Positions 16,792 through 51,167 are shown, counted from the stretch's first letter. The stretch is DNA of 64,000 nt from Candidatus Gracilibacteria bacterium (GCA_010119145.1 JAACSU010000007.1:639869-703868); one strand, 5' to 3'. Numbers and translations: made by a program. Notes: a model not told the origin generated them from the sequence alone.

Positions 16792-19700
16792 TTAATATTC
16801 ATCTGAATAATCATCATCTTTTCTTTGTGGAGCTACTCGAGGAGTAATAGCCCTGTTTACATCTCATTTCACCACATCAGAAAAGCTTGGAAAGTCATCT
16901 GATGGCACTTCTCATTCATTTAAAAATTCATATCAGCCTCGTGAATCTACTACAGTTGCTCTTTCATAACTTCTTCATCCATTTTCATGATCTATAATTT
17001 GGTTTACAAATCTATCAATAATTCACGTATTTTCTCAGGCATCAATACTTTCTGAGTTTGCTCACGCATTCACGAGTTGATCAAAATACACTCACCAATC
17101 ATTGAGTTTAGAAAATTTTCAAGTGGGAGAATTAAATGCTGCAAGAGTTCTAATTTCAGCATGCATCCCCATTATAGCAGTAAGAAAATCTCTGAGGTTC
17201 TTTTCGAGAATTTTTTTCTGAATTTCTTTATTTTTCATTGGATCAGAATCATACTTTCTTTTTGTTACAGCAACCATTTCTGGAACTATTTCATCAGTCC
17301 ACATCATATTTGAAGCATCTCAGTGAGATAAAACTCACCCGGTTCTCATATTAAAGAGTCCTGAGGCTTTTTTTATACTAAGACCCGAAGTTCCCTTTGC
17401 AGCCATAGGATCTTCGTATAACTTATTCTCAGTAAAACTTGGATCTTGTCACATAAATCCTTCAAGTTTGTTATAATATTTTTTGAATATAGGATCGTCA
17501 TCCTTTTCAAGAAAAATCATTTTGTTGTGTATATCTTCAGTCTCTCACGTATTAAGCATATATAAAATATCTGTAATATCTCATCCCCATTTTTTATAAA
17601 ATGCAATTGTTTCATCTTGTTTCTCTCATTCTGGTTTAAGATTGTTTTTTTGATTCTTAAATATACTTTGAGCTTGAGCAGATATTCAAGCATACTTTTG
17701 AGGATTCTTTTCTTCGAGTCTTTCAGATATTCTTTTTATAGTTTGATTCACTATATCTATATCTCATGAATACGACATAAATCTCATCATCATAAGCATT
17801 CGAGACTGGCTTGGAAAATTCTTCGCTTTATCAAGAATATCTTTCTCAAAATTATATGCCATACCCGAGTACATCATAACAAACGGAATCATATTCATTT
17901 CTTTCATGCTCCCTCATTTGTTCGTGACAGACTCAAGCCATCAAAAAGAGTTTGGATAATTTCAACTGCTCATTTCTGAAAGTCATCCATCAATTCGTTC
18001 GACTACATCTCTTTCATTAGAACCATCTTTTAAACCTACAGCCCATTCTTCCTCTTTTCATTGACCTCTAAATTTCTTAAGTTCTTTTGCGAGTTTAGAT
18101 CTTCTTTTTACTCCATTATACCCTCATTCTTTTACTTGTTCAGACATGAGGTTATAAACGAGTTCTTCTTCCGTGGTATTGAGTCAAAGTTTATCATTTT
18201 TTTCATGGACTCTCATCCACACAGAATCTCCAATAATACCTCACATTTTTTGATACCAATAACTTTGACCTTGGTATTCATACATCTCTTTCGCATTGAG
18301 CGCTCCATATTTTTCAAGCATATAAAACATACCAGCTTCTTTTTTATATTCTGGAGTTCTTGGGTCTTTGAGCCAATTTTTTATTAATTGTGTAGCTGGT
18401 TTAGAATTAATATCCTTAAGTCTTCAGATAAATTCTTCCATACTTTTCTTTTGAGTTTGTTCTACCCGAGACATCATATCAGTCTTCCCATCTTTTCATA
18501 AAAGTGGTCCAAAAAACTTGAGGGCAAATTGGTTTGCTTTATCATCATCACCTTCATTGAGAATATTAGTGATCTGCTCTATAGCTGTTTTTGATCATTT
18601 CACAACTGAAGCAAGCGACATTCCTTGAAACATAAAATTAAAGAGTCCAAATTTGCTTTCTGGAATTGGAACATTATCCATTTTCTCCTGTTTCACCTTT
18701 CACTCTTCTAAACTTCTAAGTTCAAGTTTATTATCAACAATATATCTATCTAAAACTCATACACTCATAGTATATTTCTGACTCTCAACCTTGAAAATTT
18801 CACCTACTTTTTTATCCTTCGTTTCTCAATTTTTTTGTTTTTCAGATTTCTTTTTATCAGCAACTTCTCAAAAACTTACTGTGACCATCTCTCCATCAAT
18901 AGAATGGATTTTAAAAAGTTGTTTTGATCATCATGAAATAGGAACCAAAAAATCATAATTAACATTCGTTTTAGATTTTCTGTGTTGTATTTTACCAGAT
19001 TTTAATTCAAATTCTGACCATTTTGTATACATTTGGTCAGTTTGAGTAAATAGCTCCTGAAAGTCAGTAATTTTAGAGACTCTCACTGCTTTTTGACTTT
19101 TAAAAGCTTCAATAAATTGTTGATAGGTCAGGGATTCTTCTCCTTTAAGTCATTTAACAACTATTGTTTGATTATCATCAAATACTCTAAGAACACTGAA
19201 AGTTTCTCATTTTTTTCCATTGGTCGTAAATGTAGTCCCTTTTTCGATTCAAAATGCCTTTCACTCAGTATCCAGCTCATCAAGTTGCGCGTGCAAAGTT
19301 TTTGTATTTTGACTTGAAACGTTCAGATACACTTGTTCCTTTTCGTCTTGTAAGAGGAGTAATTCATTGAGCTTTGAATCATCATTCCATTGTGACTTTG
19401 GAGTTCATTGTTTTCTTAACTCATCTTTTCTCGCTTGAATTTGTTCTGCAATTTGAGTTTTTTCTCTTTCAATTTGTATTTTATCCTGATAGTTGTCAGC
19501 TCAATGTTTATCAGTTATTTTTCATGTTTGGATTCTATGATTGAGTGTTTGCTTCGAAATAAACTCAATTTTAGGAACTCAATGTTCTTGATTTTGAGCC
19601 TTGCTTGCAAAGTCTATAAATTGAGAGTACGTTTGTCTCGAAACATCACTACTTGCTCTCGCGTCATAGGATTCAGATCATCTATCAACGAGTGAAAATG

Positions 19701-20874
19701 TCCCAACTTTTCAAGTATTTATTATTTCAGCGTAGAGATTTACTTCTTGCAGAACTTTCGTTTCAGGATGTTGAAGTTTTTGAGTTAAAACAATAATTGC
19801 TCCAGCATGGAAGTTTTCAACTCACTCAACATTTGCTAAACTTCATAATATACTTTTTGCTTCATCCAGTGATTGAACACTCTCTGACGCAAGTCTCGTC
19901 TCAATATCAGCTATAAGAGTATTATAATCACTTGCAAAGAGATCATAGAAAAAATTCTTTTCAAAGAGTTGCTCTTGAGAACTCGCATGTGATAAAAGTC
20001 ACTGCGTAGACATAAGGAGTTCTTCATCACTAATTTGAGATATATAGCTCTCAACATCAATCCCCGTAGTTCCAAAAAGTCCTGTTTCAACTGAAGTTTC
20101 TAAAGCGCTTTTTTTTATAGATTTTGCAGCTTGATTATCAATAATTCAAAGTTCTATTGCTTGTGCAACGGTCATACTTGGCATATATGACTCAATAATT
20201 TTTTGTTTTTCATCTACAGTAAATATAGATGATTCAAAAAGAGTCATGACATCAGCTGTATCTAATTTTTGTCGAGATTTGATTTTGTTATTAACAATAC
20301 TTATTGCTCGTTGTTCGTGATCTGGAAGACGTGAAAATCTTTTTTCAATCTGCATGTCCTGTAAGACTCATGAAAATAACTTTACATTTGGAGTATGAGT
20401 GGATCCATAGACCGTATTAATAAATTTTTTACGCTCTTTTTCTGATTTTAGTAAAAGCTCAAGTTCCGATTCTCTCTCAATACTTTCAACTTTTGGAGCA
20501 ATTTTTGATGAATATTTTTTGGTATCTATATCAAATTCTTGCAAGAAACTATCTTGGATAGCTATTTTTTTTGAACGAATTCAAGCCAGAAAATGAGCAA
20601 TTTCTTTTTTAAAACTACTTACTTGAAGCGTGTCATTAGATATTTCAAGTCCTGAGAACCTAGAGTCAGTTCCAGAAAAGTTTTTTATGTCTTGAATTTG
20701 ATCAGGAGTAAAATCATTGACTCAGTCGATTGATTTTGCAAATGTGAGTCTATCTTCTTTTTTATTAAGTCTGTTTTTTACATACGAGGAAACAAGTTCA
20801 GCATATGAATTATTTTTATTTATTGGTTTATTTACCTTATCTTCTCCAGATTCACCAAGTGTAGGTCCAGTCAT
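16792..20874 (-). CDS. 1360-residue protein of unknown function
   Basis: Open through 1361 codons with TGA=Gly. No signal peptide or membrane helix is obvious: it begins MTGPTLGESGEDKVNKPINK. The N-terminal third is rich in helices with charged faces. The middle (around residues 520-680) has beta-type segments such as GTTFTTNGKKGETFSVLRVFDD and a matching later unit, perhaps two related small barrels. The C-terminal third is helical, Met- and Lys-rich (for example MLMMMRFMSY), and ends in an Arg/Asp tail. No Walker, protease or nuclease motif was recognised. It is transcribed alone from a good promoter, divergent from rseP. Confidence 0.8.
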
Positions 20875-26399: not shown

Positions 26400-29300
26400 T
26401 TAATCTAAGACTTCATATAATGCCTTGTAACTCATTTGCATATATGGAGTAAGAGTCTTTTTTACTTCATCAAAATTATTAACATCAGTTTCTGATTGTA
26501 TTACAACATTTTTATAAGGAAGTAGATATTCATATTTATTTTCTGTAACCATATTTTTTGAAATTACCCTTGAAATAGATTCCAAACAGCTCTCTACTTT
26601 TTGAGTCCTCATTTCTACTGACCCATAATTTACTCCCGCAAGTTCAATATAGGATTTTAGGTTTTTATTATCTTTAAATACATCATTGGCTAGCTTCAAG
26701 CAAACGCTATCGCTGCTTATGAGTTCAACTTTAGGATGTGTAAGGAAAGCAAGGAGATGTTCATATCTTTGAGTTAATCTTTTTTCAGGATCTTGATCTA
26801 TGGTCGCTGCATTGAGATCTAATAAAATATATCTCAGTCAGAGTTTTCTAAATCGTTCATGGCTCACATCTAAGTTTTCATCATATATATACTCATCAAA
26901 AGCAGTGAGAAGAGAATCTTCCATTATTCTTGAACTATTTTCCGTTATAAAATATTTTAAGAATGTCCCAACTCTATATATAACCTGTGTGTTTCTTTGT
27001 TCTTGTTTGGGGTAAAGAATAGTTACATACATCTCTTGAAGAAGGCTCTCTATGTCTTCATTGAGTCCTCATTCAATGTTGTAACGAGTTAATTGTTGTA
27101 AAACCTGAAATAGTCTTTCAATGTCCTTTATATCACGAACCATTTCAACTACGTCGATGTTATTTGGATCGTCATCAATAATTTCTAGTAATTTATTTCT
27201 ACTTGAAACAAAAAAATCATTTTGTTCACCTTTTCCTAAATTAAGATTATACAAAATATTAAAATAATCTGGATGAAACTCAAAGACTGCAGCTTCTTCA
27301 GTTTGAAGTCATATTTTATAATCTGAATATCACGCAGTTTTTAGGTTAGTAATTCAGTGAGGTATTGCTGAAGATAATAAATATACAGCAATGATTCAAG
27401 CCACTATGTAGCTCAGTGATCATGAATATTTTTTGATACCTTGATTTTGAGATTCTAGGGAGTGCTCAAAAGTATTCACTAAAAGTAAAATGAGCACTAT
27501 AAATACAAAATACATTACTATTCCGTACCAAACAATTCAAAATGCGGAAACAGCCCAAAGTAATAAATAAATACTTAAAAAACTTAAGACTGAAAGAATA
27601 TTGTTATTATGATTATTTTTTTCCAATGTATAGTATAAATACATTAGTGGAAATACATAAAATAAAACAATGAGTATATATCATCCAGGAAGTCAGAAAT
27701 TTGAGAATGCTTGTGTAATAACTGCAGATACAGAACTAGGAATATAATACACAAATACCAATGCAATTATACCAGCGAAAATATACATATACTGAATCCT
27801 TTTGAAAACCAAGAATAAAAATAATATGGGAAGAAGTGCGAAAAATATAAAACTAATATCTGTAAATTCTCATTTTTGATTAAGTTGAAAACTTAAATTA
27901 AATGGAAGCTTTAGATAATTATTTATACCTTCTTCATACCCAAAATAGCGTCCAAAATCTTCATTATTTGTAGTTCATTCATTATTCATCCTGGCATCTC
28001 CATTAGACTGTATCTGAGCAAGTTCATTAGGTGTATAAAGATTTGAATAATCTGCTAAAAAATCCTGAGAGTATCATCAAAGTATATATCAAATACTTAC
28101 AGGTAAATCCGCTTCCCTTTCAGAGATATTTTTAATAAACCAAGGACTGAGTATGAGAAAAAAACCTAGGATAAGAAAACCTATCTCAATAGTTATTTTA
28201 ATATAATCACTGAGAATATTTTTATTTTTCAGATACGAATATCAAAATATCACTCATGCAAGAACTAAGAATATCAAGGAAATAATAATTCGAGTTTGGG
28301 AGCTAACATCTATTGCAACATTCATTATCTTCCAGAGATTTCAGAATGTAAAAATACTGAGAAACAACAAGAAATAAACAAAAAAACCAGAAAGCTGAAA
28401 TCTTTTATAAAATATCATTCAAAAACCAGCTAATAGAACAAGAAGTGAAGTGACTTTTATAGTAAAAATAAATCAAATAAGTATTCAGATAATAAATAAA
28501 TATATGTATCTCGTTTTACTTCTCGTTATATGAGCTTCTGAAATATAAGAATATAAAAGTGTAAATGGAATGATAGAAAATGTAAGTAAACCATAATCTA
28601 ACTTCATATCTTTTGCGAGTTGAAATACACTCATAGGAAGCATAAGAAGGACTATGATTCCGAGTAATGGAAGAGAAAAATATTTTTTATGCTCTCAAAT
28701 GATATACTTCAATGCAACATACGCGATAACTACAACAGTTACTCACGAGAAAGAATTGAGTAGAAACGCATAGGTTTGACTTCCAAATAAAAATCAGATT
28801 CCACTAAAGAGCTCCCAGCCATACATTTTCCCAAGTGGGAGTAACTCTCAAGCTTGAGAAAGAAGTTTTGGATAGTTCATATATACTCCTAAATCATCCC
28901 AACCAATTGGAAATGGTCTGTATACATTTATAAAATTGATTCAGAGAAAAAAACTGATTATTCAAACTTGCACTTCATTAATTATTCTCTCAACACTTAA
29001 AGAACCATCTATTTTATTTCAAATGGTAACTCGAGATAATTTTGATAGCTCAGGGATACATTCTTTATATCAGATACCAGCACAAATTAAAATCCAAATA
29101 GCAATCGCTAGGCCTAAATACAATCACGTTGCTGCAATAATAAATACTCATAGCATAAATATAACAAATCATATTCCAAAGGACATCAGAAATACTATCA
29201 ATGAATCAAATTTAGAAACATCTAATATTTTTTTTATGACACTGAGTCACAAAGTATAAATCAAAAACCAAAATAATGAGAGTATGAGTAATAATCCAGT

Positions 29301-29603
29301 AAGTTTGAGGAACAGAAACACTCAAAGTCCTATACTAAGACCCGTAAGTCAAAAATACAAAAGACAGAGTAAAAATAACTGAGAGAAAAATATTCAAACA
29401 ATTTTATAAATGGTAAATCAACTTTGCTGTTCAATAAATCATATTTCAAATAGTTTATAAGACCCATATAAAACAGCAACAAGAAGTATATAGAGTCAGA
29501 AAAAATCTTTAGATTCTCAATGAAATGGAAATACTATATAATAAAGATAAAAACTTACACAGGCTGTCAGAATCAAAAATACAAAACGTGAAATATAATG
29601 CAT
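26400..29603 (-). CDS. large multi-spanning GT-C type membrane glycosyltransferase
   Basis: 1067 residues. About the first 840 residues hold many hydrophobic helices, with the first beginning HYISRFVFLILTACVSFYLYY. The loop PIGWDDLGVYMNYPKLL carries an acidic D-D-x-x-x-Y motif after a membrane helix, as in lipid-phosphate-sugar dependent GT-C enzymes (PMT, ArnT, STT3). The last 230 residues are soluble and helical. It probably moves a sugar from a lipid carrier to a protein or glycan on the outer side. It stands alone, just before the polysaccharide locus and divergent from malic enzyme. The exact family could not be fixed by eye. Confidence 0.75.
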
Positions 29604-43998: not shown

Positions 43999-46900
43999 GT
44001 GAAAAAATTTACAGCATACATCCTCCTATTTCTTCATTTGTTTTTTGCTGGAAACTCAAGTATGTTTTTATCACACTATTTTTCTATTGAAAACGCAAAT
44101 GCTGCATCTACTACTCTCTCCTATGTTGGAACTGCAACGAACTTAGCACTTCAATGAAATCCTTTCTTGACTCCAACAAATGCTCAATGAAATCAAACAC
44201 TAACATCAGCCATGAGTGCTTTCAATTGAAACGCTAAGACTACTGATACTCTTGCCCTTACAAATTTTAATCTCGCAGCTGCTGGCTTACCAGCTACAGC
44301 AACTATAAACTGAATAAGAGCTGAAGTAGAGTTTAACACAGATAATGCTACTATTACAAATCAAGTTCAATTAACAAAAAATGGGACCGTTGCTGTAGGT
44401 TTGAACCGCGCCGTATGAGTGACGCAAACTGCAAAAGCATTCAGAACATACGGAGGTGCTGCAGATTTATGGGGTACTACTTGGACCGCAACAGAACTCA
44501 GATCAGCTAATTTTTGAGTGTTACTCAATTATATTTCTACAGCTTGAGCTCAACATATGGTAAACGTGTATAGAGTACGAGTCACTATAGATTATACACC
44601 TGCTCCTAATAACCCTCCAACAAATATACTCCTCTCTAATAATACAATCAACGAATGACAACCTGCAGGAACTACTGTAGGTCTGTTAAGTACTGTTGAT
44701 CCAGATGTAGGAAATACACATACTTATAGCTTTGCTTGTACTGTACCGTGAGCCGATAGTGCAAGCTTTTCCATTGCTGGAAACAACCTTAATTCCAATG
44801 CAGTTTTTAATTTTGCAACGAAATCTACTTATAACATATGTGTACGAACAAATGATGGACTTGGCTGAACCTTTGATAAAAACTTTGTAATTACTGTTAA
44901 TCAAGTCATCGTTCCAAAACCTGGTTGAGTATCAACGTGACTTAATTTATGGCTTAAATCAAATGCTGGTACCAGTACAACAACCAATAACACAAATCTT
45001 GCGACTTGGAATGATCAATCGGGAAATGGGAAAAATGCAAACTCTGTAGTTGCCCCGTTATATAGAAATAACACCACTGATAACCTTAATTTTTATCCAG
45101 TTGTTAAATTTAATGGAGTAGATCAATACATGAGAAATTCAAATGGTTGAATTAGTTCAAAAAACTATTTTGCAGTAGTAGTCCCTACAAATCAAGTAGA
45201 TGGGACCTTAAGTTGATGAGTCCCATTTAGTACGGAGTGTACTGACGCAACAGTTAATACTTGAGTCTGTAATCTCGCATTTGGGTGACTTGTTCTTGGA
45301 TCGTTTACTCTCGCAATACCAGATGAAGTTGTAACACACGCCTTGTGATCTTCACAAAACTATCGTTCATCGCAAACATGAAACTTTTCATATGAAGCAA
45401 AAAAACCAATGCTCGTAACAGTAAATGAAAATGCTGCATGAGACATATCTGAAGTCTTTGAAAAATGAGTACAAATCAATAATTTTTCTACAGGTAATAA
45501 AATATTTGCTACCAACACAAACTATAGTCTCTGAGCTTCGCTTGAACCTGCTTTTCCATTTTATTATGATGGTGACGTCGTTGAAATAATAAATTATAAT
45601 GAGAGGTTAAGTAATACTGATAAAGCTAAAATAGAATCATATCTGTCTCTCAAATATGGTGTAACTCTTAATAATTGAAATCAAAATTATATAGCATCTG
45701 ATGGAACTACACTTATGTGGAGCACAGCAACTGCTGGATCATTTAATAGTAATGTCTTTGGTATCGGGCGAGATAATCTCCAAGCTCTCACCAACGTGAA
45801 ATCTAAATCAGTAAATAAAGACTCAGTAATTACCCTAGAAGCCGTGGGAGAATGATCCAATACTGCACCAAGCTTTGTTGATATGACTGATAAAGAATTT
45901 TTCACTATATCTAACAATAATCTTTGAAACTACTGGAGTTCGACATGATCTCCATCTGGATTTGATACTCTCACTCGAGTTTGGAAAGCACAGGAAGTAT
46001 GAGATGTTGGAACTGTGACTCTTGAATTTGATGTTGCAAATCCTAACTTTGATATTCCAAATCTTAATGCAGGTACTGTGTATAATTTTGTGTACGATTC
46101 AAATAATAATGGGTCACTTACAGATGAGACACCGAGCGTTATGACTAATACCTCTGGAAACCTGTGGAAAACAAATGCTATCAATATGTCTAATGGGCAA
46201 ATATTCACCATAGCAACTCAAAAATGAGCAAATAATATACCAACCAATATTACCCTTTCGAACAATACAGTAAATGAAAATATTGCTGCAAATTCTACTA
46301 TTTGAACACTTACAACGACAGACGCAGATGCAGCTAATACTCATACCTATTCTCTCGTTCCAGGTTTATGAGACACCGATAATCAGTATTTTACAACTAA
46401 CACTAATGTACTAAGAATCATACACTCCCCTGACTTTGAAATAAAAAATACCTACTCGATTAGAATTCAAACCAACGATTGAAATGCATGAGTGTATCAA
46501 AAAACATTTACTATAACTATAAACGATGTTTGAGAATGAATAACAAGTATTATAAATTTTGAACAAGCTGAACAAAGTTATAAATATAGTGTAACTTCAT
46601 GAAGTTGGATTAGAAATAATGGAAATGTAAATGAAGGCTTATTCTCTTTTGAAAGTGATATTGTATGAATCGATGCTACACAGGCTTGTTTTGAAATCGA
46701 ACATACTGATACTGGCACATGAACGGTAAGTTTTGATTATAATACTTCCTCAGAAGTAGATGCAGATTTCCTGAGATACTATGTTGATAATGTTGAGCAA
46801 CAGGCATGGAGTGGTGAAACTCCTTGGTCACGTTATAATTCTCCTGAGATGACTGCTTGAACTCATATGTATAAATGGTGTTATATTAAAAATGTAAGTT

Positions 46901-47682
46901 GAGCAGCATGAGCTGATAAAGTATACATTGATAACATTCAGTATTCTAACAATGTTGCAGATACAACTCCACCTACTATTACAAACTTCAATTTTGCAAG
47001 TGGTTCACTCCTTCCAGGTTGAAATCACACTCTTATCATAAATTACAGTGATAATGATAGTGGAATAGATATAAACTCAACTATTCGTGAACTCTATAAA
47101 TGGAATGGAACAGACTGGTGAGCAGATATATCTGGAACAGGAATAACTAATGGTGCCAAAAATACAACTACGGCCAATTACGCAACCAATAGTCTCTGAT
47201 TTGGAAAATATATGTTTGTGTTTAGAGTGAGCGACAATGCGTGAAATAATAGTGCAATATTTAATTCAGTATTTTATGTTGATGAACCAATCTTTATTAT
47301 TTGAAATGAACAAATAGATATAGGGAATCTAAATGCAAATATCCAGAAATTTTCTACTGGTACTACACTGACAGTAAGAACGGTTTGAGCACCATTTAAA
47401 TTATTTTTAAATAGAAATGGAGAACTTACAGACGGAAACACAAATATAATTCAAAACTGGAACGGAAGCAAAGGATACTGATATGATGTGACTCCCCTCT
47501 CGTGAACCATCAAAGCTATTGCAAGCAATGAGTTAATAAAAACTCAATCTAAAAATATTAATACTAATGGGAATCTTAATACCTACACATATAATATTCA
47601 AATTTGAGCAGATATAGATGAACAACAAGCAGCTTGAGATTACTTATGAAAACTAGATTTCAAGATTCAACTTGATTATTAG
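43999..47682 (+). CDS. large surface protein with cadherin-like and LamG-like domains
   Basis: 1227 residues from a GTG start; an N-terminal signal peptide (KKFTAYILLFLHLFFAGNSS, cleavage probably after NANA). Then an N-terminal beta domain, two cadherin-like repeats (NNPPTNILLSNNTINEGQPAGT near 195 and IPTNITLSNNTVNENIAANST near 750), a LamG/DUF8202-like block with LWLKSNAGTSTT...ATWNDQSGNGKNAN (about 313-630), another carbohydrate-type domain with paired cysteines, and a last 140-residue beta domain ending AAGDYLGKLDFKIQLDY, which resembles the end of WxL-type domains. Probably a cell-surface adhesin. The next two genes belong with it. Confidence 0.88.
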
Positions 47683-47705
47683 TAATCTTATTATCATATA
47701 TATAT

Positions 47706-47734
47706 TAAACACTGATGAAAATCGGTGTTTTTTT
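47706..47734 (+). terminator. terminator after the large surface-protein gene
   Basis: AAACACTGAT-gaaa-ATCGGTGTTT with one G-T pair, then TTTT. It abuts the next promoter. Confidence 0.75.
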
Positions 47735-47762
47735 GACTTTATTATAAAATGTATGTTACAAT
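47733..47762 (+). promoter_or_regulatory. strong promoter for the 47812 gene
   Basis: TTGACT (47733-47738), 18-base spacer, TACAAT (47757-47762) with an upstream TG. It lies 49 bases before the ATG and fits high expression. Confidence 0.6.
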
Positions 47763-47811
47763 GTAGTTGCTTTTGCTAGCAAACACTTTTATTCTTTATA
47801 ACACCTACGTT

Positions 47812-48483
47812 ATGATACAAACAAAAACAAAAAAGATTCTCGCAATCTTAGCGCTTGTTGCAGTAAGTGCAACTAACTTCTCTGCAGTATCTGCAGCAGT
47901 ACAAATTGGTACTGGATCTATTACTGGTTCTGGAGGATCTGCGTCTCCTATTATATAGGATGAAGCATTCCCAGGTTTCGCAACTGGATCTGTTTCTAAT
48001 ATTAAAATTAAGGCAAGAGTAAATCCTACTCTTAATATGACAATTTCTGCAGAAGAAATTGATCTAGGTATTCTCGCTGCTGGAGTAACTTCAAGTGGGT
48101 CATTATTTCTAGAAATAGGAACAAATGCACGATCTGGAGTATCTATCACAGCCAGATCTCAATCTGGAGGTCTTACAAATACTGCTGAAAATGGTACACA
48201 AATCAATGACCTTACAACTGATGGTCTTGCTGAAAGTTATACATACAAATCAACACCTAATGCTACTGATGACTCTAGCTCTACAGCATTTGCAGCTACT
48301 GGACTTACAGAAGTTGAGGTAAACAATAATACTGCTGAAAATGTAGTGTATACTACTAATAAAGGAGAAGCTACTAATCTAGAAGATGATGTAGAATTCG
48401 TTGTATCTGCTATTGCAGAACAAGAAACTCCTGCTGGTGATTATGAAGATAGAGTAACATTTACTGTTGTTTGAAACTTCTAA
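47812..48483 (+). CDS. small secreted WxL-like surface protein, interrupted by an in-frame TAG
   Basis: 224 codons in one frame, split by TAG at 47956-47958 (codon 49). Before it: a clear signal peptide (KKILAILALVAVSATNFSAVSA) and GTGSITGSGGSASPII. After it, without change of frame: DEAFPGFATGSVSNIKIKA..., then a beta-rich domain with IDLGILAAG and the C-terminal ETPAGDYEDRVTFTVVGNF, like the ends of WxL and related Ig-type surface domains. One base (TGG to TAG) would restore Trp. Of about 20 glycines only the last but two residues uses TGA; the rest are GGT/GGA, so the gene looks highly expressed. It is flanked by its own promoter and terminator. Confidence 0.75.
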
Positions 48484-48519
48484 TACCAAAGCAAAACTCT
48501 TATACACTGCAAAAGCATC

Positions 48520-48550
48520 AAAAGTCTCGCTACAATGCGAGACTTTTTTT
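48520..48550 (+). terminator. terminator after the small surface-protein gene
   Basis: AAAGTCTCGC-tacaat-GCGAGACTTT followed by a T-run. Confidence 0.9.
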
Positions 48551-48603
48551 GATTTTTAGACTTTATAGTTAATATTCTGATATATTATTTCTAGATTTTA
48601 TGT

Positions 48604-50178
48604 ATGAAAATAGTAATTTCAGTCGTTTGTATGTTTTTTATATTTTTTGTATCAGTTGTTGAGTATTCATATGCTGCTATAAATTATACCCTCACTCCAA
48701 TCAAGTATGAGCTTGAAATGCAACCAGGGGAATCTAAAAATTTTCCTGCAAGTATTCAGAATAATTCTGATAAAACAGTCACTCTTCCTATAACTACTTC
48801 CGATTTTCAATCAAACGGAACTGCGTGAGTTCCCAGTCTCGTGCGTAAGTCAGAACTCGTTTTTCCAGATCAAGAGCTCTCTACTTGGATTACATTACAA
48901 AATAACAGCGTGAGTCTAGCTCCATGAGAAGAATGAACTATTAATTTTAATATTACTGTTCCTGAAACAGCCACTCCAGGATGACATTACTGAGCTGTCA
49001 TATTTAATAATGCAGGTTCAGAAACAAGTACTTGAGGTAATATCTGAATAAACGTAGATTATGGAATAATAATTTTAGTAAATGTTGCTTGAGAAGTTAT
49101 CGTCGATGCTGAAATATGAAATCCTATAATTAATGTTGGATGATCTACATATACATGAAGTTGATCAGCATCAAGTCTGAAAGATTTGGATAATATATCA
49201 ACAAAACCTGATGATAACTCTTGGTATCTTTGAAATGTTGGTGGAGTAAAAATATATCAAATCCCAGATCATTGCCCCCTGTGAGACTTTACGAGTAGTA
49301 GATTTGATAACTTGTGTTTCTCGGTAAATCAAAGCTGAAATAATCCTAGGTCAAACATTTTCAATAATCCTGATTTATTTACTGGTGACTTTAATGTATC
49401 ATTTTGAGTCCCTATTAAAAATAATTGAAACACACATATAAAACCAAATTGAAAAATAGTTCTTAAAGATGAAGATGGAAATGTGATTAAATGAATTGGA
49501 AAAGAATCAATAACCAACGAACAATGAGCAGTAATTGGAGAAAAAATTGTAGACTATATTCCATTTAACGATCAAGGATGAAATGTTCTTCCTAAAACTA
49601 AAAGGCTTTTTGAATCAGAATGGAAATGATTTCCATATAAATCATATGATGATAGTTGAAATCAAATTATCAACTATTGGACTCCAAGTGAATACTATAC
49701 CCAAAAAAATAAAGATGATGCATGATTTTTAATGTTTTGGGAACGAGTATCTGAAAAAAGACAAAACAAAATTATAGATGCCGATATAGAAATAATATAT
49801 TATGATGAAAATGGAGAAGAAATAGTTTTTGAATCTGCTCAAGAGTTTGAGGTTCAGTATATTGAACAACAAATCACTAATAATCCTTATGTAATACTGT
49901 GACTCTTATTATTTGGTTTTGCCTGAGTATTCACTCTCCTATGAATAAGATGGTGGCTTGCAGCTGGAAGAAAAAGAAAATGTTGGAACTGTAAAGAGGA
50001 AATTAAATCAACATGGGAAACGTGTCCATACTGTAAAACAATTCAAAATAAAAAAGAACATCGAAAATTTGAGCAACAATCTCAAGTTCAAGTTGAAAAT
50101 AAAAAAGTTCAAAGCGTTAAAAAAAGTCCTGTAAAAAATCCAACTCCAAAGACAAGAGTTTCAAAAACTAAAAAGTAA
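48604..50178 (+). CDS. membrane-anchored DUF916-like surface protein with cytoplasmic zinc ribbon
   Basis: 524 residues. Signal peptide KIVISVVCMFFIFFVSVVEYSYA, then an Ig-like domain AINYTLTPIKYELEMQPGESKNF that matches the beginning of the WxL-partner family DUF916 (PxxxxxxxxPG, then N-N-S). More beta strands follow to about residue 400, one membrane helix (about 427-452, NPYVILGLLLFGFAGVFTLLG), and a cytoplasmic tail with CWNCKEEI...CPYCKTI, a four-Cys zinc ribbon, and a basic, Lys/Val/Pro-rich end. It may anchor or sense the two surface proteins encoded just upstream. Most glycines are TGA, in contrast to the gene before it. Confidence 0.82.
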
Positions 50179-50222: not shown

Positions 50223-50927
50223 TTATAATGGATCTGGAGTCCAATGAGTTACTCCTCTTGCAAGTCTCCCAATATGACCTACAATTGTTTGCATCATACT
50301 CAGTAAACCATCATACTTTGTTCGTTGTTCTTGCGTATATTTCTTATGACTATCAGCTTGAACTTGTACTTTATTTTCAATCAAGGTACTCATAGCTACT
50401 TTTTTATAAACATCCATCTTAAAATTAACAAGGCTCATACAAGATGATGCATCAAAATCTTGGTCTAGAAGAGGAGCTGCAGCAAGATTAGGAATAGATC
50501 AACTACATTTAATTCTTTCAGCAAGTATTCCACCATTACAAAGTGTCTTGTACTTCTTATAATATACTCCCTCTACAGAAAGATTTTTTGTGACATCATC
50601 TATAGCTCGAGAAACATCATCTTGTTTATTAGGACCGAAATATGCATCCTTTTGACTTGCAAGTTGACCGAGGTATTGATTAATTTCATCATCTATTTCT
50701 CGAAACGTACTATCCAAAATTATTTGATCTAAGATAGCTTCATTTGAAGGTTTTGAAGTACATATTGGATTTTTTATACTCCTAGAACTTCCATTTTGTT
50801 GTGCGATTTTACAAGTTTGGAAGGCAGAAGCATATTCACACTCTAGCTCAGCTGCAAAAGCATTTCAAGAATATATACTCATTGAAATGAGACAGGAAAT
50901 CGGAATATAGAAATATTTTCTATTCAT
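50223..50927 (-). CDS. secreted cysteine-containing protein of unknown function
   Basis: 234 residues. Signal peptide MNRKYFYIPISCLISMSIYSGNAFA, mature start AELECEYASAFQTCK. The mature part is helical with cysteines in pairs (CEY...TCK, NPICTS, TLCNG, IKCSG, SSCMS). Its style resembles the secreted protein at 6382. The ATG directly follows the stop of the 79-residue gene, and both lie downstream of hsp20 on the same strand. No motif for function was seen. Confidence 0.78.
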
Positions 50928-51167
50928 TTATTTTTTCTTTGAAAATATATTTAAAACTCCAACTGTAAATTTTCAAAAAGTAGTAACTCCTTTTTGAAAG
51001 ATATTTTTACTCGATGTACTGACTTTTTGACTGACTTGTTTTCATTTTTCTGTCCTACTGAGTCAAAAAATAGATGCAGCGGCACCTGTTATCACTATTC
51101 CGGTAATAAATTTATCAACTTTTCAAACATTTTTTGAAACGGTTTTTCTGCTTTTTCTGAAAATCAT
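50928..51167 (-). CDS. 79-residue single-pass membrane protein
   Basis: 79 residues: a basic start MIFRKSRKTVSKNVGKVDKF, one hydrophobic stretch ITGIVITGAAASIFGL, then a Lys/Ser/Gln-rich helical tail ending FSKKK. Not recognised; the layout is like the YtxH-type protein at 1360-1830. It lies nine bases after hsp20 and directly before the secreted 234-residue protein, so the three are probably one operon. Confidence 0.7.

Follow-up and report, generated by a model that had tools for sequence, protein, structure and literature searches.

In a 64,000-nucleotide window from a Candidatus Gracilibacteria bacterium (GCA_010119145.1 JAACSU010000007.1:639869-703868), we have analyzed a cassette of three consecutive plus-strand genes that encode a large secreted protein, a small secreted protein and a WxLIP-like membrane protein. 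The window is located on contig C7 of a 1.28 Mb genome that is 97% complete and that has to be read with TGA as glycine (genetic code 25). Both the code and the signal-peptide-like stretch that opens each gene had been recognized in an earlier note, made from the sequence alone, which described the locus as a WxL-like surface-protein module. Terminator-like hairpins stand after the large and after the small gene (Table 1), the latter with stems that differ between loci, so the genes are not obviously one operon and a single three-gene transcript is unsupported. The relatives used for comparison are mostly metagenome-assembled genomes of Candidatus Gracilibacteria, and the GTDB set overlaps with the same species. 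The cassette is real and conserved, and a pilus of the donor-strand type describes it better than a WxL module does.

Table 1. Features of the three-gene cassette (positions counted from the first nucleotide of the window).
Feature	Position	Strand	Evidence
Large secreted protein, 1227 residues, with signal peptide, cadherin repeats and a pilin-like domain at the C-terminus; putative tip adhesin	43999..47682	+	Cadherin E 3.4e-8; exchange of N-terminal modules among relatives
C-terminal pilin-like domain of the large protein	47227..47679	+	Alignment; 92.9% profile match to Pam pilins; single genome match
Terminator-like hairpin between large and small genes	47707..47730	+	Similar hairpins in 8/19 loci
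Promoter-like hexamers 5' of the small gene (weak: shuffles give as many such sites)	47733..47762	+	
Small secreted protein gene, with Pam-pilin-like domain in its second part; proposed major pilin	47812..48483	+	NF058581 E 2.1e-4; 98.1% profile match; fold
In-frame TAG inside the small gene; near-invariant Trp codon in relatives	47956..47958	+	
Terminator-like hairpin 3' of the small gene	48520..48547	+	Hairpin in 20/30 loci
WxLIP-like membrane protein, 524 residues; proposed chaperone and fibre anchor	48604..50178	+	PF06030 39.0 bits; best PDB match WxLIP 9i25
WxLIP_PGBD (DUF916) domain, residues 35-135	48706..49008	+	Pfam match
Second Ig-like domain (residues ~264-426), where the family is best conserved	49393..49881	+	
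Predicted transmembrane helix, residues 428-454	49885..49965	+	
Cys4 zinc-ribbon-like motif, residues 457-477, followed by Lys-rich tail	49972..50034	+	Zn_ribbon_3 20.5 bits, below cut-off; motif in 21/37 homologues

The small protein matches pilins of the Pam system of the candidate phyla radiation (CPR), a type of pilus whose occurrence across the phylum was catalogued only recently. As a literature search found no paper describing "Pam", we cite this system from NCBIfam only (NF058581, pilin C-domain; NF058579, PamT; NF058578, PamR); more may be known of it. The pilin profile, CPR_Pam_pilin_C, matches 20 of the 22 members of the small-protein family (E up to 0.1, best 3.8e-7; those scored individually are below the curated cut-off), and profile-profile comparison of the family with Pam pilins gives 98.1% over 151 columns. 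The corresponding value for Firmicutes WxL domains is 0.6%, obtained with a WxL profile of six sequences only. Pfam WxL (PF13731) matches none of the 22 family members and nothing in the genome, and the WxL domain that the earlier note had placed on the surface proteins was thus not found by sequence. A structural model of an intact orthologue (predicted local distance difference test score, pLDDT, 89.8) resembles donor-strand pilins, including the CfaE pilin domain (Z 9.2), CsuA/B, PapG and FimG, and also matches TasA-type and cannula fibres. Most of these matches begin near residue 42 of the model, and the preceding residues form an N-terminal extension that is absent from the C-terminal domain of the large protein. 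The 50 structural matches listed for the model do not include the WxL chain of PDB entry 9i25, which speaks neither for nor against a kinship of fold. Sequence searches against PDB chains returned nothing significant, and no solved pilin was matched by sequence.

Codon usage sets the small gene apart from its neighbours. TGA accounts for 1 of its 20 glycine codons, compared to 51 of 108 (47%) and 27 of 44 (61%) in the adjacent genes and 12% in ribosomal proteins; in relatives, the share is 14% in the small gene versus 57-59% in the neighbours. The suggestion that the protein is abundant is therefore borne out, whereas the intact reading frame assumed for it is not, as the gene contains an in-frame TAG (see below). 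Judged from sequence, the ribosomal-protein-like glycine codon use and the gene's own terminator are as would be expected for a major pilin; a terminator is expected at this position where the major subunit is made in excess. The proteins end in ...KIQLDY and ...TVVGNF, with no LPxTG-like sorting motif, hydrophobic stretch or basic tail, and so lack the C-terminal sorting signal of sortase-assembled pili.

The large protein was previously likened to cadherin and LamG proteins. Its cadherin repeats are significant (E 3.4e-8), but the LamG similarity is not, and a LamG_3 match is present in one relative only. The C-terminal domain, the only copy of its domain type found in the genome, compares with Pam pilins at 92.9% over 122 columns and with Firmicutes WxL domains at 4.2% (again with the six-sequence profile); submitted alone, it has no NCBIfam match. 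The earlier view that the two surface proteins end in related domains holds, with both C-termini assigned to one family through their matches to the Pam pilin profiles. In the large proteins of relatives, this C-terminal domain is kept, while the N-terminal modules vary among cadherin, LVIVD-propeller, LamG-like and cellulose-binding types. A kept C-terminus with exchanged N-terminal modules is the pattern of tip adhesins.

The start of the membrane protein, compared to DUF916 in the earlier note, is indeed recognized by Pfam WxLIP_PGBD (DUF916, PF06030) with 39.0 bits against a cut-off of 27.3, as are 34 of the 36 members of its family. The best PDB match of its AlphaFold2 model (mean pLDDT 83) is the Enterococcus faecium WxLIP bound to a long WxL protein (9i25, Foldseek E 4.9e-10). 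Residues 25-417 of the model, spanning both WxLIP domains, align to this structure with a Z of 15.1 and a root mean square deviation of 8.0. As the latter reflects differing domain angles, we claim only the fold and domain order, not the detail. Below 9i25 follows a broad field of immunoglobulin (Ig)-like and PapD-like structures, including the pilus chaperones CsuC, CfaA and Caf1M (Z 10-11). DUF3324 (WxLIP_HBD) has no Pfam match in the protein.

The membrane helix, which the earlier note took as a difference from the Firmicutes partners, is also present in canonical WxLIPs (PMC10599100), so only the four-cysteine (Cys4) tail is distinctive. The predicted transmembrane helix and the cysteines (CWNC...CPYC, followed by a Lys-rich tail) agree with the earlier description, but the assignment as a zinc ribbon does not reach the Pfam cut-off (Zn_ribbon_3, 20.5 versus 27 bits). 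A strict Cys4 pattern matches 21 of 37 relatives, none of the 15 Pam-locus homologues and none of four homologues from other phyla; the tail is lineage-specific. Positive charge after the helix exceeds that before it in 36 of the 37 relatives; the tail is therefore predicted to be cytoplasmic by the positive-inside rule. The helix of WxLIPs has been proposed to insert into the host membrane (PMC10599100), a proposal on which this cassette bears, since the charge bias and the frequent occurrence of Cys4 after the helix argue that the helix sits in the producer's own membrane. A further motif (DxCPxGD...D..C, residues ~223-238) is located in the linker between the two Ig-like domains and is restricted to a clade whose members mostly also bear the Cys4 tail.

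Of the 36 relative loci that have upstream DNA, 29 place the small gene immediately 5' of the WxLIP-like gene. Within the window's own family, such adjacency proves little because the flanking genes are conserved there too. Linkage is better supported by the persistence of the pair in other families, where the flanks differ, and by the pairing of a Pam pilin with a WxLIP-like protein across the phylum. Our phylum sample of 287 genomes contains the Pam pilin domain in 72 and a WxLIP-like protein in 121; among the matches listed, a WxLIP-like gene is within 10 kb in at least 54 of the 67 best pilin loci. Most of twelve phylum loci contain tandem pilin-domain proteins of very unequal lengths beside WxLIP-like proteins, and two of them, from other classes, have NCBIfam PamR nearby, with a PamT-like pilin in one. 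The earlier note had staked its module on the genes occurring together in relatives, and they do so widely. In some relatives, the small gene is duplicated in tandem, and others encode an additional large protein whose C-terminus is of the same kind (loci L042, L043 and L044). In order-level relatives (L058, L061 and L062), the small and WxLIP-like genes are followed on the 3' side by genes for secreted proteins of ~145 and ~340 residues and a large S-layer-like protein, which are possible extra components of the same system.

We consider it probable that the three genes specify a minimal adhesive pilus of the donor-strand type in Gracilibacteria, with kinship to the CPR Pam pilus. Its abundant major pilin would be the small protein, a β-sandwich preceded by an N-terminal extension (~40 residues); by analogy, this extension would complete the fold of the subunit that follows. 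The tip would be occupied by the large protein, as it has a pilin-type domain without the extension as well as exchangeable N-terminal modules. The WxLIP-like protein would remain in the producer's own membrane through its helix, with the Cys4/Lys-rich tail in the cytoplasm, and its Ig-like domains would receive the secreted pilins and anchor the base of the fibre. By analogy, the cassette may work like a chaperone-pilin-adhesin system. In its predicted pilin and chaperone folds, it may resemble the archaic and class 5 chaperone-usher pili (Csu, CFA/I), and like them it would pair an adhesin that has a C-terminal pilin domain with a major pilin. In contrast to those systems, its chaperone-like protein is membrane-anchored and its pilin is not significantly similar in sequence to solved pilins. 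An outer-membrane usher is not expected, the organism being assumed to be a monoderm without an outer membrane.

With the Pam pilus, the cassette shares the same pilin-type C-terminal domain on a small and a very large protein and the presence of a WxLIP-like gene in the cluster; the two genes are linked in the window, in relatives and across the phylum, as described above. It differs from the Pam pilus in its sub-cut-off pilin matches, in having no PamR above the cut-off, in the additional Cys4 tail and in consisting of three genes only. One of the 22 small-family members matches PamT, at E 0.032, too weakly for assignment. Weak PamR matches in Gracilibacteria were dismissed as noise, since unrelated control genomes match too. 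As the pilin domain and PamR stay under their curated cut-offs, we have not filed the cassette as a Pam pilus, and as no WxL domain was detected, we have not filed it as a WxL system either; it stands between the two as a divergent variant whose Cys4 tail is particular to its lineage.

Several observations weigh against a pilus. The small protein of the window scores 21.4 bits (E 2.1e-4) with CPR_Pam_pilin_C, for which the curated cut-off is 55 bits, and none of 60 relatives has PamR (NF058578) above its cut-off. The matches of the small model to pilins (Z 6-9) are within the range of common β-sandwich likeness. Compared directly, the profiles of the small and large C-termini match weakly (64.8% over 25 columns), and the case for their kinship is therefore made by the common Pam match and the alignment. 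The cassette is known from genes and predicted single-protein models alone, and the proposed pilin gene of the window is itself interrupted.

This last point also raises the question of whether the cassette is decaying in this genome. The TAG separates the signal peptide and ~19 mature residues from the rest of the small protein, at a site that is a near-invariant tryptophan in relatives, where intact copies of the gene exist. Decoding of TAG as an amino acid is not favoured, as no tRNA with a CUA anticodon is present among the tRNA genes examined. If the stop is not an artefact of the assembly or strain, it is doubtful that this genome expresses the pilin. In favour of a real stop in a system that is being lost are its near-invariant position, the failure to find a second pilin copy in the genome and the lack of a CUA-anticodon tRNA among those examined. 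However, the codons after the stop are constrained (ratio of nonsynonymous to synonymous substitution rates, dN/dS, of 0.13 versus the closest relative) and retain their strong bias, which indicates that the stop is either very recent or an artefact of the metagenome assembly or strain, and both neighbouring genes are intact. Thus, decay deserves consideration but is not the outcome that we would expect.

A second alternative, close to the model of the earlier note, is a WxL-type surface complex, in which the WxLIP-like protein would hold the small and large proteins compactly at the wall or membrane, and no polymer would form. Firmicutes WxL clusters most commonly combine a large, a small and a WxLIP gene (PMC10599100), which is the arrangement seen here, and the partner is WxLIP-like by both sequence and fold, with DUF916, a second Ig-like domain and a transmembrane helix as in the Firmicutes systems (PDB 9i25 and 9i1y); it differs from these in its extra Cys4 tail and in the absence of a sequence match to DUF3324. 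The WxL domains of Enterococcus also finish in an AGDYTGK-type strand. However, the domain shared by the surface proteins matches pilins instead, with the Pfam searches and profile comparisons (0.6-4%) described above giving no WxL domain. We therefore regard a compact WxL-type complex as unlikely. The role in attachment suggested by the earlier note is plausible and is also part of the pilus proposed here, but its framing as a WxL module is not supported by sequence. Inward signalling by the WxLIP-like protein through its Cys4 tail once the surface proteins bind a host, also raised there, is unsupported and, in our view, highly improbable: the motif does follow the helix in 21 of 37 homologues and is accompanied by a positively charged tail, but domain searches found no kinase, response or DNA-binding domain in the protein, Cys4 is absent from related families and Pam-locus homologues, and the tail may equally be a structural anchor.

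Beyond the donor-strand-type pilus that we favour for this cassette, a broader unification may be imagined, although we hold it to be doubtful. Firmicutes WxL clusters, CPR Pam pili and this cassette could belong to a single superfamily of surface fibres of the donor-strand type that need no usher, with a WxLIP tethered to the membrane serving as both chaperone and anchor. The Gracilibacteria form would then add a cytoplasmic Cys4 ribbon that fixes the topology and might report host contact.

The source bacterium is tiny and uncultured, and is probably host-dependent. Little is settled about the way in which ultrasmall CPR bacteria keep hold of their hosts, and published work on their attachment centres on type IV pili and a type IV secretion system (PMC12206443, PMC10633639). 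For Gracilibacteria, the cassette provides a concrete candidate for an adhesive organelle through which the cell may attach to its host, and in which a major pilin can be named alongside a variable tip and an anchor.

Elsewhere in the genome, the tRNA that would decode TGA as glycine, with the anticodon UCA, was not reported by ARAGORN; the program may have missed it, or it may be located in a gap. The window also contains two long open reading frames on the minus strand without a Pfam match at E 0.001 (16792-20874, 1360 residues, and 26400-29603, 1067 residues). Immediately downstream of the cassette, two minus-strand genes encode a secreted protein of 234 residues (50223-50927) and a protein of 79 residues (50928-51167), neither with a Pfam match. 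Both are convergent with the WxLIP-like gene and are kept beside it in most genomes of the family.

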